The position numbers were made by a program, and so were the translations under genes. From contig NZ_JAIXCQ010000001.1 in assembly GCF_020297055.1 (NCBI RefSeq), positions 569,610 to 633,609 on the forward strand: a DNA stretch of 64,000 nucleotides. Reading direction: 5' to 3'. Positions 741 to 60,939 of this stretch are shown here, piece by piece (position 1 is the stretch's first letter; the number at the start of each line of letters is the position of its first letter). Source of the stretch: Isoptericola luteus. Its GTDB lineage: Bacteria > Actinomycetota > Actinomycetes > Actinomycetales > Cellulomonadaceae. The notes under the pieces were generated by a model, which saw only the letters and a list, made by a program, of their open reading frames with translations, searched no databases and had not been told where the DNA came from.

Positions 741-1034
741 GACCTGTCAGGACGAGGGCCACGAAGACGTGCACGTGACCCTGACAGGTCGCAGCGCCCG
801 GGAGCTGTCAGGACGAGGACCACGAAGACGTGCACGTGACCCTGACAGGTCGCAGCGCCCGGGAGCTGTCAGGACGAGGGCGATGAAGACGTGCACGTGG
901 CCCTGACAGGTCGCAGCGCCCGGGAGCTGTCAGGACGAGGGCGATGAATACGTGCACGTGGCCCTGACAGGTCGCAGCGCCCGGGAGCTGTCAGGACGAG
1001 GATCACGAAGACGTGCACGTGACCCTGACGCGAC
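741..1034. repeat. Array of five 50-bp palindromic elements (family 1)
   Basis: Five copies at 741-790, 802-851, 863-912, 924-973 and 985-1034 have an exact 61-bp period: a 50-bp element plus a conserved 11-bp spacer (GCAGCGCCCGG). Each element has 11-bp inverted arms (GAGCTGTCAGG ... CCTGACAGGTC type) around a 28-bp core holding the self-complementary ACGTGCACGT. The last right arm is decayed (CCTGACGCGAC). The array fills the gap between rhaM and the rhaI promoter. The same 50-bp element recurs at 31016, 51780, 55755 and 59995. Confidence 0.95.
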
Positions 1035-1042
1035 GCAGGCGG

Positions 1043-1084
1043 TTGACGACGGCCGGCGCCGACCTTACGCTATGAAACGATTCA
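1043..1084 (+). promoter_or_regulatory. rhaI operon promoter with LacI-type operator
   Basis: TTGACG (1043-1048), a 17-bp spacer and TACGCT (1066-1071) form a near-consensus sigma-70 type promoter. The predicted start near 1078 lies inside the operator-like TGAAACGATTCA (1073-1084), a position suited to repression. The matching site in rhaM (359-370) supports a shared LacI regulator. The 5' untranslated region to the rhaI ATG is about 80 nt. Confidence 0.7.
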
Positions 1085-58540: not shown

Positions 58541-58545
58541 GGGCG

Positions 58546-60939
58546 ATGTCCCGGTCCCCCCGACCGTTCACCACCGTGCTGGTGGCCAACCGCGGCGAGA
58601 TCGCCTGCCGGGTGATCGGCACGCTGCGCCGCCTCGGCATCCGGTCGGTCGCCGTGCACAGCGACGCCGACGCCGGCGCGCGCCACGTGCGCGAGGCGGA
58701 CGTCGCCGTCCGCCTCCCGTCCCGCCCCGCTGTGAGCGGGCGTTCGGCCCTCTCGAACGGGGAGAAGGGGGCCGAACGCCCGCTCACAGCGAGGACGGGA
58801 TACCTCGACGTGCGGGCGGTCGTCGACGCCGCCGTCGCGACCGGCGCGCAGGCGATCCACCCCGGCTACGGCTTCCTCGCCGAGAACCCTGCGCTCGCGC
58901 AGGCGTGCGAACGTGCCGGGATCGTCTTCGTCGGGCCCGGCGTGCGCGCGATGACGACGATGGCCGACAAGGTCACCGCCAAGCGCCTGGTCGCCGGGCA
59001 CGGCGTCCCCGTGCTGCCCGGCACGCTCGACGGCGGGCTCAGCGATGCCGAGCTCCTCGCCGCGGCAGCCGACGTCGGCTTCCCCCTGCTGGTCAAGCCC
59101 GTCGCGGGCGGCGGCGGAAAGGGGATGGTCGTGGCGGGGTCGGCCGACCGGCTCGCCGAGGCGCTCGCGTCCGCGCGGCGGGTCGCGGCGTCGTCGTTCG
59201 GCGACGACGGGCTGCTGCTGGAGCGCCTCGTCGACCGGCCCCGGCACGTCGAGGTGCAGGTGCTCGCCGACACGCACGGCACGGTCGTGCACCTCGGCGA
59301 GCGTGAGTGCTCGCTGCAGCGCCGCCACCAGAAGGTGGTCGAGGAGGCGCCGTCTCCGGCCGTGGACGCCGAGACACGCGCCCGGATGGGCGAGGCGGCG
59401 TGCGCCGTGGCGCGCTCGGTCGGGTACGTGGGGGCAGGCACGGTCGAGCTCCTCGTGCCGGCGGACGACCCGACGTCGTTCTCGTTCATCGAGATGAACA
59501 CGCGCCTGCAGGTGGAGCACCCCGTCACCGAGCTGGTCACCGGCGTCGACCTCGTCGAGGCGCAGCTGCGCGTGGCGGCGGGCGAGCCCCTGTGGTTCGC
59601 GCAGGACGACGTGCGCCTCACCGGGCACGCCGTCGAGGCCCGCGTGTACGCGGAGACACCGGCGCGCGGGTTCCTGCCGGCGACCGGGCAGGTGCTGGTG
59701 TACGACGACGCGGGCGCGGCCGCCGGACCGGGCGCGTCGCCCCGGCGGCTCGACAGCGGGATCGCGGCGGGGAGCGTCGTGACGGGCGACTACGACCCGA
59801 TGCTCGCCAAGGCCGTGGCGCACGGCACCGACCGCGCCGAGGCGCTGGCGCGGCTGGACGGGCTGCTGGGGGACGTCGTCGTCCTGGGCGTCGAGACCAA
59901 CGTCGGGTTCCTGCGGGACCTGCTGGCCGACGACGCCGTGCGCGCCGGCCGCCTCGACACCGGCCTCATCGACCGCTTCCTCACCACCCGCCCGGAGCCG
60001 TCAGGCCCAGGTGCGCCAGGACCCGCACGTGGTCCTGACAGCTCGGTGCCGGTGGTGGCCGCGGCGCTGCTCGCGCTGGCGGCGGCGGACGGCGGCCCGG
60101 CCGGCGCGCCCCGGGGCGCCGTGGCGGCCTCGGAGGTGCCGGGGCCGTGGGCGCAGGACGGGTGGCGGCTCAACGCGCCGCCCGCGCCACGCCGGGTGGT
60201 GCTCGCCGACGGCACGGGCGCCCCTCACGTGCTGAGCGTCGTCGGCACGCCGGAGGCGGCCGTCGTCACGCCCGAGGGCGCGGAGCCGGTGAGCGCCTCG
60301 CTGCGCCCGGACGCCGCGGGCACCGCGCACCGCTGGTCCGTCACCGTCGACGCCGTGACCCGCACCGTCGTCGGCGCTGTGAGCGGGCGTCTGGCCCTCC
60401 CCGCCGGCGAGAAGGGGGCCAGACGCCCGCTCACAGGACCGGGGGAGGTGTGGGTGCACGTGGACGGCCGCTCGTCGTCGTTCACGGTGCTGGACCGCTC
60501 CGCGGCCGCCGCCCGGCAGCGCGAGGAGCGGGCCGCGGCCACCCCGACCGCGCGCGGTGCCGCGACCACGCAGGTGCGCGCCGACATGCCGGGCACCGTC
60601 GCGGCGGTCCCCGTCAGCGACGGCGACCACGTCCTCGCGGGCGCCACGCTCGTCGTCGTCGAGGCGATGAAGATGGAGCACGCGCTCGTGGCGCCGCACG
60701 ACGGCGTAGTGGGCACCCGGGTGCGGCCCGGCGAGCAGGTCCGGCTCGACCAGGTCGCCGCCGTCGTCGAGCGCGCGGCCGATCCGGACGACGCGGCCAC
60801 CGACATCACCACCGACACACCCCCCGAGAACGTGCCGGCGCACCCGCCGGCCGACAGCGCAGGACCGGCCGCCGAGGCACACCCCGCCCCGGTGACCGCG
60901 CAGACCGAGGCCGACCCGGCGACGACAGGAGCGACATGA
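58546..60939 (+). CDS. accA1: Biotin-carboxylase/BCCP subunit of methylcrotonyl-CoA carboxylase, with three embedded palindromic elements
   Basis: 797 residues, longer than the usual 650-670. Biotin carboxylase (TVLVANRGEIACRVIGTLRRLGI, GGGGKGM phosphate loop, FIEMNTRLQVEHPVTE) runs to about 480; a middle domain and a biotinyl domain with Lys709 in VEAMKMEH follow. Three insertions lie at domain loops: residues about 62-82 (62-bp element), 484-500 (50-bp element) and 611-631 (62-bp element), each in frame. The first falls between RLP and TGYLDV, where other carboxylases have a short loop. A disordered Ala/Pro/Asp-rich tail ends the protein. Stop overlaps the acyl-CoA dehydrogenase start. Confidence 0.93.
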   Translation: MSRSPRPFTTVLVANRGEIACRVIGTLRRLGIRSVAVHSDADAGARHVREADVAVRLPSRPAVSGRSALSNGEKGAERPLTARTGYLDVRAVVDAAVATGAQAIHPGYGFLAENPALAQACERAGIVFVGPGVRAMTTMADKVTAKRLVAGHGVPVLPGTLDGGLSDAELLAAAADVGFPLLVKPVAGGGGKGMVVAGSADRLAEALASARRVAASSFGDDGLLLERLVDRPRHVEVQVLADTHGTVVHLGERECSLQRRHQKVVEEAPSPAVDAETRARMGEAACAVARSVGYVGAGTVELLVPADDPTSFSFIEMNTRLQVEHPVTELVTGVDLVEAQLRVAAGEPLWFAQDDVRLTGHAVEARVYAETPARGFLPATGQVLVYDDAGAAAGPGASPRRLDSGIAAGSVVTGDYDPMLAKAVAHGTDRAEALARLDGLLGDVVVLGVETNVGFLRDLLADDAVRAGRLDTGLIDRFLTTRPEPSGPGAPGPARGPDSSVPVVAAALLALAAADGGPAGAPRGAVAASEVPGPWAQDGWRLNAPPAPRRVVLADGTGAPHVLSVVGTPEAAVVTPEGAEPVSASLRPDAAGTAHRWSVTVDAVTRTVVGAVSGRLALPAGEKGARRPLTGPGEVWVHVDGRSSSFTVLDRSAAAARQREERAAATPTARGAATTQVRADMPGTVAAVPVSDGDHVLAGATLVVVEAMKMEHALVAPHDGVVGTRVRPGEQVRLDQVAAVVERAADPDDAATDITTDTPPENVPAHPPADSAGPAAEAHPAPVTAQTEADPATTGAT
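58729..58790. repeat. Family 2 element (62 bp) inside the biotin-carboxylase domain
   Basis: Perfect arms of 22 bp (58729-58750 and 58769-58790, beginning GCTGTGAGCGGGC) around an 18-bp loop. It encodes AVSGRSALSNGEKGAERPLT in frame within the first loop region of the biotin carboxylase. Confidence 0.95.
59995..60044. repeat. Single family 1 element (50 bp) after the biotin-carboxylase domain
   Basis: Arms GAGCCGTCAGG and CCTGACAGCTC enclose a core close to those in E2 (GGACCCGCACGTGG). It encodes EPSGPGAPGPARGPDSS in frame, between FLTTRP and VPVVAAALL. Confidence 0.94.
60376..60437. repeat. Family 2 element (62 bp) upstream of the biotinyl domain
   Basis: Arms GCTGTGAGCGGGCGTCTGGC and its complement ending at 60436, 62 bp long as the other copies. 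It encodes AVSGRLALPAGEKGARRPLT in frame; the internal GAGAAGGGGGCC is shared with the copy at 58729. Confidence 0.94.

Follow-up and report, generated by a model that had tools for sequence, protein, structure and literature searches.

A stretch of 64,000 nucleotides of Isoptericola luteus DNA (positions 569,610 to 633,609 of contig NZ_JAIXCQ010000001.1; hereafter the window) carries a 50-bp palindrome in twelve places, some of them between genes and others inside protein-coding genes. How does one palindromic element come to occupy both kinds of site, and which function acts on it? From the results below we consider, with moderate confidence, that it represents a family of non-autonomous, fixed-length elements of Actinomycetes, similar to repetitive extragenic palindromes (REPs) and Rickettsia palindromic elements (RPEs), and that an AbiEi-like DNA-binding protein, tentatively equipped with a nuclease part, is probably the partner acting on it in trans.

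Anatomy, placement and distribution of the element

Twelve copies had been listed for the window in an initial annotation, and all 12 positions hold a 50-bp copy. The copies and the genes that carry them are given here (strand is indicated for genes only).

741..790: array copy 1 of 5, 61-bp period, 8 bp past the 3′ end of a gene
802..851: array copy 2 of 5, 61-bp period
863..912: array copy 3 of 5, 61-bp period
924..973: array copy 4 of 5, 61-bp period
985..1034: array copy 5 of 5, with a decayed (broken) right arm
30583..31383, minus strand: LUD-domain gene with an element doublet
31016..31065: copy in the LUD-domain (LutC-like) minus-strand gene, frame 0, first of a 60-bp doublet
31076..31125: copy in the same gene, second of the 60-bp doublet
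51780..51829: intergenic copy, first of a 61-bp doublet; its first 2 bases finish the TGA stop of the upstream open reading frame (ORF)
51841..51890: intergenic copy, second of the 61-bp doublet; right outer arm decayed
55512..56888, plus strand: bkdC-like dihydrolipoyl acyltransferase gene with an element doublet
55755..55804: copy in the bkdC-like gene, frame 0, in the linker of the lipoyl and E3-binding domains, first of a 60-bp doublet
55815..55864: copy in the same gene, second of the 60-bp doublet
58546..60939, plus strand: accA1-like gene with one copy of the element and two palindromes of a second family (see below)
59995..60044: copy in the accA1-like biotin carboxylase gene, frame 0, downstream of the Biotin_carb_C domain

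The element had been described as 50 bp long with 11-bp arms (GAGYTGTCAGG). The length stands, whereas the constant core, TGTCAG(G)-N28/30-(C)CTGACA, is restricted to 42 bp; GAGY/RCTC is what most often flanks it in the host, and these outer 4 bp vary even there. Within the window, copy 741 starts with GACC, copies 55755 and 55815 end in AAGTC, and copy 59995 has one altered base in its left arm. The host genome, of 3.97 Mb in 26 contigs, has the pattern TGTCAGG-N20..34-CCTGACA at 65 places, and a control read backwards gave none. Fixing the spacer at N28 left the count at 65; hence, exact-arm copies of any other length from 34 to 48 bp are absent from the host. The arm GAGYTGTCAGG by itself gave 105 matches in the host versus 2 for its control.

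Each unit is composed of two inverted half-sites of 21-25 bp, whose end (TGTCAG) is invariant and whose inner portion is specific to the genome. The interiors differ between genomes yet are palindromic at the family level: with one copy taken per genome from 27 genomes, 265 of 378 interior pairs were complementary versus 146 after shuffling. Some interior positions are near-invariant, and doublets at 60-62 bp are found across several genera. Since most host copies were detected via exact arms, arm conservation is inflated in the copy alignment. A comparison of doublet mates located without the arms avoids that bias, and revealed 37 arm mismatches over 1056 positions (3 over 456 outside the host) at a mean interior divergence of 0.18; here doublets were counted from both sides, only mates at least 57% alike were kept, and, of the 50 host mates, the two with periods of 67 and 71 are probably spurious. 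At L026 2029-2130, a right arm lies in a short tandem run of 16-bp, CCTGACAACTCCCGGT-like units adjoining an intact copy.

Placement was scored with gene calls from a home-made codon-usage caller at 37 distinct host loci, which comprise 61 copies. Nine loci were inside genes and 28 were intergenic. All nine in-gene loci are read in frame 0, as ELSG...PDNS or similar; as read off the sequence, one of the two other frames is blocked by a TGA in the right arm, and the other is open but unused. The carriers include the LUD-domain protein, dihydrolipoyl acyltransferase (bkdC), biotin carboxylase (accA1), an aromatic amino acid lyase and a CopA-type copper ATPase (two sites). The RPE-like behaviour that had been proposed from the window, i.e., a palindrome between genes and also in frame inside several unrelated proteins, is thus borne out. 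So is the proposed difference in period (60 bp at 31016/31076 and 55755/55815, 61 bp at the intergenic 51780/51841): in-gene doublets had a 60-bp period in 5 of 5 cases, and the 17 intergenic arrays had a period of 61 bp in 16 cases, of 62 bp in one and of 60 bp in none. The majority of the intergenic loci (22 of 28) lie at most 25 bp from the 3′ end of a gene, and 6 do not fit this rule. At the 51780/51841 doublet, the TGA stop of the upstream ORF (50864-51781) is formed at the ORF/element junction itself.

A search of the whole genome and of relatives, suggested by the initial annotation, returned, besides the 65 host copies, matches to the TGTCAG/CTGACA arms in 26 of 41 chosen genomes (1-200 copies, with the maximum of 200 in G192), the controls being 0 in all 41. 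With the same arms, 8 of the 17 tested genomes of the host genus carry copies and 9 carry none; hence, copies switch between present and absent among close relatives. Across the family, 19 of 221 genomes had the exact core. Among 197 genomes sampled evenly from the class, 33 matched, and 17 of them, from families f1, f21, f28, f29, f35 and f38, had at least 3 copies; the reversed control gave 4 matches in 3 genomes, and the 16 single-match genomes may be due to chance. An exact-core survey of the class matched 12 of 394 genomes, and its reversed control also matched in 2. Among named genomes, the full 50-bp arm pattern was found only in Isoptericola (two species), Luteimicrobium xylanilyticum, Antribacter gilvus and three Nocardioidaceae bins of metagenome-assembled genomes.

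Shared sites and their interiors

Several sites are shared between species, with a different, genome-specific interior in each. Alleles were compared for CopA (18 genomes), bkdC (11 sequences), accA1 (14 sequences) and a locus of genus g19 (13 genomes). CopA site 1 is filled in the host, G143 and G147. CopA site 2 is filled in the host, G143 (with a slightly altered right arm), G147, G138, G150 and G141, and is decayed in G144, whose genome holds no intact copy. In the host, G143 and G147, the positions of both CopA sites agree with near-codon precision. In the CopA of G137 (L163) one element is left and a stretch of ∼44 residues between the two sites is absent, which is what recombination between copies would leave behind; such an event inside the gene is likely.

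In bkdC, a doublet with the 60-bp period is located at an equal place in the host, G143, G135 and G147, and single elements of other types are present in G138 and G150. Five of the 11 sequences are devoid of an intact element, and one of them, G137, has another palindrome. In accA1, 6 of the 14 sequences have one copy in the same loop, and its position shifts by a few codons; G145, which has no intact copies, holds an apparent decayed one in this loop. In genus g19 an element lies between convergent stop codons, and the site is filled in 5 of 13 genomes. In the convergent-gene gap of G184, G185 and G188 (L141, L142 and L145), three other palindromes of unrelated sequence were observed. Empty alleles in relatives, which the initial annotation had named as the mark of a mobile element, do exist: CopA site 1 is cleanly empty in G144 and G135, and the bkdC linker of G144 has no element, so that the segments are not carried at all sites. 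The inserted segments of proteins such as a copper ATPase and central metabolic enzymes differ wholesale between species.

A tree of accA1 and CopA pieces placed the host, G135 and G147 together, and G143, G137 and G144 together, with some nodes weakly supported. At five shared sites, the interiors of the host and G147 were 31% identical, compared with 37% for random cross-genome pairs and 62-66% for copies within a genome, and the proteins flanking the shared sites were about 76-88% identical. The host and G143, which are less closely related, have a shared interior type (orthologues 69% identical, n = 4). The nearest interior was in the own genome for 61 of 61 copies in the host, 17 of 17 in G147, 17 of 18 in G007 and 6 of 6 in G125, and for 6 of 8 in G150, 4 of 5 in TY and 4 of 6 in Bin5.1. 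Between the host and G147, orthologous interiors are no more alike than random ones, so the orthologue signal is lost at these sites. Either the interiors are rewritten genome-wide or the sites are refilled.

Refilling would mean that the element is mobile and that shared sites are hot spots hit anew in each lineage. We find this independent re-insertion credible, though somewhat short of probable. The shift by a few codons in the accA1 loop described above is in its favour, as is the occupancy of another accA1 loop, in which a second palindrome family of the host takes part. This family has a fixed length of 58 bp (TGTGAG-N46-CTCACA), with 26 host copies and 0 in the reversed control. Three copies are in the window:

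50828-50885: second-family palindrome
58731-58788: second-family palindrome, in frame in accA1
60378-60435: second-family palindrome, in frame in accA1

At the loop near 60378, the host and G137 have a second-family element, G141 a first-family doublet, and G147 (L099) a small palindrome of unknown family; hence, this second accA1 loop seems to be a landing place for palindromes. The copy at 58731-58788 is absent from 13 relatives, and represents a net gain of 60 bp relative to G144 and G147. Unlike those of the first family, second-family copies covary base by base within the host (605 pairs versus 545 expected, of 754). The almost codon-exact CopA sites of three genomes and the bkdC doublet, kept at one place and period in four, argue against re-insertion.

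An AbiEi-like gene between element copies

To identify a partner, the 305 ORFs flanking copies were clustered, and six clusters spanned at least 3 genomes. Two of them were discarded as shared orthologous loci, and three as common families (ABC ATPases, LacI regulators and short-chain dehydrogenases). The sixth is an AbiEi-like family, bracketed by elements in three genomes:

L028:2165-3097 (contig C20:90164-91096), minus strand: host AbiEi-like gene, between two element doublets
L041:6677-7594: AbiEi-like gene of Bin5.1 (Nocardioidaceae), between two copies
L130, about 1513-2496: AbiEi-like gene of G179, between two pairs of elements

In all three cases an element overlaps the 3′ end of the gene, and single or double elements lie 67-135 bp upstream of its start. 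No other homologue was found in the 285 sequences searched (tblastn, E 1e-4). The gene occupies 3 of 12 intervals between separate groups of elements, and another 10 ORFs, from within or next to the other intervals, are not related to it. The L041 and L130 proteins share 44 and 55% identity with the one in the host. AbiEi profiles matched all three (best E 4e-21), covering residues 12-183 of the host protein. Acidic, histidine and arginine residues are invariant at some positions of the C-terminal part, in a pattern that we take to resemble the DUF559/Vsr nuclease motif; from its sequence, this part is tentatively a DUF559-like nuclease. No relatives were found in plasmids or viral contigs, and no match in PDB or NCBIfam; an unannotated phage record gave one weak match (E 9e-12, 34% identity), and PHROGs gave E 0.09 at best.

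As described in PMC7319586, the promoter of Streptococcus AbiEi has two 23-bp inverted repeats, separated by 3 bp, to which the protein binds, and a mycobacterial relative binds two repeat pairs with 13-bp gaps within each pair. Such a layout, with inverted-repeat pairs upstream of an AbiEi-family gene, is present at all three homologues. The element, with its two inverted halves of 21-25 bp and its frequent doubling, resembles the layout that AbiEi proteins bind, and the AbiEi-like protein may recognise or move the elements.

We propose that the AbiEi-like protein would bind the half-sites, as AbiEi antitoxins bind inverted-repeat pairs in their promoters, and that its specificity would drift, giving one common interior per genome. 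The C-terminal part, if a nuclease, would cut copies or targets, leading to spread or to overwriting from other copies during repair. Copies tolerated past genes or in flexible protein segments would persist, and a genome that loses the system, probably the case for G144 and G145, would see its copies decay. We infer mobilisation or rewriting by this protein. A specific form of the latter, which we put forward tentatively and hold to be rather unlikely, is a repeat-maintaining system: the AbiEi-like protein with its nuclease-like tail would read paired TGTCAG half-sites set at a constant spacing, and cutting followed by repair would replace the intervening 30 bp with sequence from other copies, so that the chromosomal addresses, those in genes included, are kept and the content, rewritten across the genome, stays in step with the drifting specificity. 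If true, it would explain how RPE-like palindromes persist free of a REP-associated tyrosine transposase (RAYT). CGTC-type palindromes, some RPEs among them, have no known dedicated mobiliser according to PMC3733652. Presence/absence switching, a decayed copy in a copy-free lineage and a bracketed gene family together turn the missing partner into a concrete, testable protein.

Several observations weigh against the AbiEi-like protein as the partner of a mobile family. The bracketed loci were chosen because they hold elements, so the association between gene and element is conditional on that choice. For the nuclease part, Pfam gave a single weak match (DUF559, E 0.089, one of three members), next to the resemblance in motifs. 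The two halves of single copies vary independently in 49 host copies and in 37 copies of G007, which fits two half-sites bound by one protein; covariation between halves was detected at four positions in 17 copies of G147, and paired changes at one orthologous locus of genus g19. Only 1 of 6 copies in G143 has its nearest neighbour in its own genome. No target duplication was found at 84 singletons, where flank identity did not exceed the shuffled level except at 10 bp (p 0.043), and no transposition event was observed. At 40 doublets, the spacer is similar to the upstream flank at its end (p ≤0.002), but no similarity was seen between its start and the downstream flank; this hints weakly at local duplication.

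The copies might instead be host binding sites only, i.e., operators at which a protein with a regulatory or chromosome-organising role, perhaps the AbiEi-like one, would bind; they would be selected in place with nothing mobile. The constrained arms of sitting copies, the fixed core and 61-bp doublets across several genera, the near-invariant interior positions and the operator-like copies upstream of the AbiEi-like gene would all be accounted for. We judge this improbable, given that 9 of the 17 host-genus genomes have no copy, that copies sit in unrelated genes in a single frame and mostly at 3′ ends when intergenic, and that clean empty alleles exist.

Other hypotheses and known systems

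A role as RNA hairpins, either terminators or 3′ stabilisers of mRNA, is suggested by the 22 of 28 intergenic loci at 3′ ends, the g19 element between convergent stop codons, and the folding energy of -35 to -47 kcal/mol reached by 6 of 8 folded copies; the other two reached only about -21. Among mismatches on the sense strand, G-T slightly exceeded A-C in 29 oriented non-coding copies (32 versus 22). However, over all 43 oriented copies the numbers were 42 and 39 (10 and 17 in the 14 coding ones), so that an action as RNA is not supported. In addition, in-frame copies would terminate their long host genes, no T-tract was seen in the listed flanks of copies, and Rfam gave no match to the element. 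We regard this role as very unlikely.

Movement as a REP or REPIN by a RAYT (Y1 tyrosine transposase), although in keeping with genome-specific palindromic populations, doublets and the 3′ location, is scarcely credible, since Y1_Tnp (PF01797) was found in 0 of the 26 element-bearing genomes, the host included, and in 1 of 15 element-free genomes, while the same search matched in 5 of 14 control genomes, and no GTAG tag was present at the ends of 34 aligned host copies. The initial annotation had suggested a non-autonomous mobile unit or a REP-like element with a RAYT elsewhere; the former, in its RPE-like form, is retained and the RAYT is not.

A parent insertion sequence (IS) with the 11-bp arm was not found in the host among the 100 arm matches listed of 105, and the three isolated arms examined belonged to elements whose other arm had decayed; this search covered the 11-bp arm and not an IS that shares the hexamer alone. 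A phage origin was rejected, as 98 exact-arm matches in viral contigs had chance-level interiors (1 of 98 with at least 9 of 14 pairs).

Among known systems, RPEs are likewise palindromes lying between genes and in frame in unrelated protein genes, with several families per genome (PMC3733652). The element differs in its strict 42-bp core, its actinobacterial hosts and its common ends with a genome-specific interior, a distinction drawn by description. CGTC-tagged REPs (Di Nocera et al. 2013; PMC3733652) have an unpaired CGTC/TGTC tag, stems of 8-9 bp, loops of 4-5 nt and a CCA tail. They resemble the element as short palindromes that form dimers, lie for the most part near gene 3′ ends in the genomes described in that paper and sometimes in genes, and have no dedicated transposase; in contrast, TGTC is here paired with GACA, and the whole 42-50 bp is one inverted repeat. 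The main text of PMC3733652 does not contain the word Actinobacteria. REPINs also form genome-specific palindromic populations (PMC3116915, PMC8049555), and RAYT genes are flanked by REP copies (PMC3733652), whereas the bracketed gene here is AbiEi-like and the RAYT is absent from the 26 element-bearing genomes. AbiEi operators share the inverted-repeat pairs of ∼23 bp, one or two, upstream of an AbiEi gene (PMC7319586), but they occupy a single promoter, whereas the element is dispersed in tens of copies and the host protein has an extra C-terminal part. Miniature inverted-repeat transposable elements are also non-autonomous inverted repeats, with TG...CA ends; they measure 70-300 bp according to PMC3733652, unlike the 42 bp found here without target duplication. 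A literature search, with thin coverage of subscription journals, found no description of this element, and it is filed as a new variant near RPEs and CGTC REPs rather than as a member of a named family.

Elsewhere in the window, positions 21667-21778 are made up of tandem 8-bp units (GTCGCCCG / GCTGCCCG).

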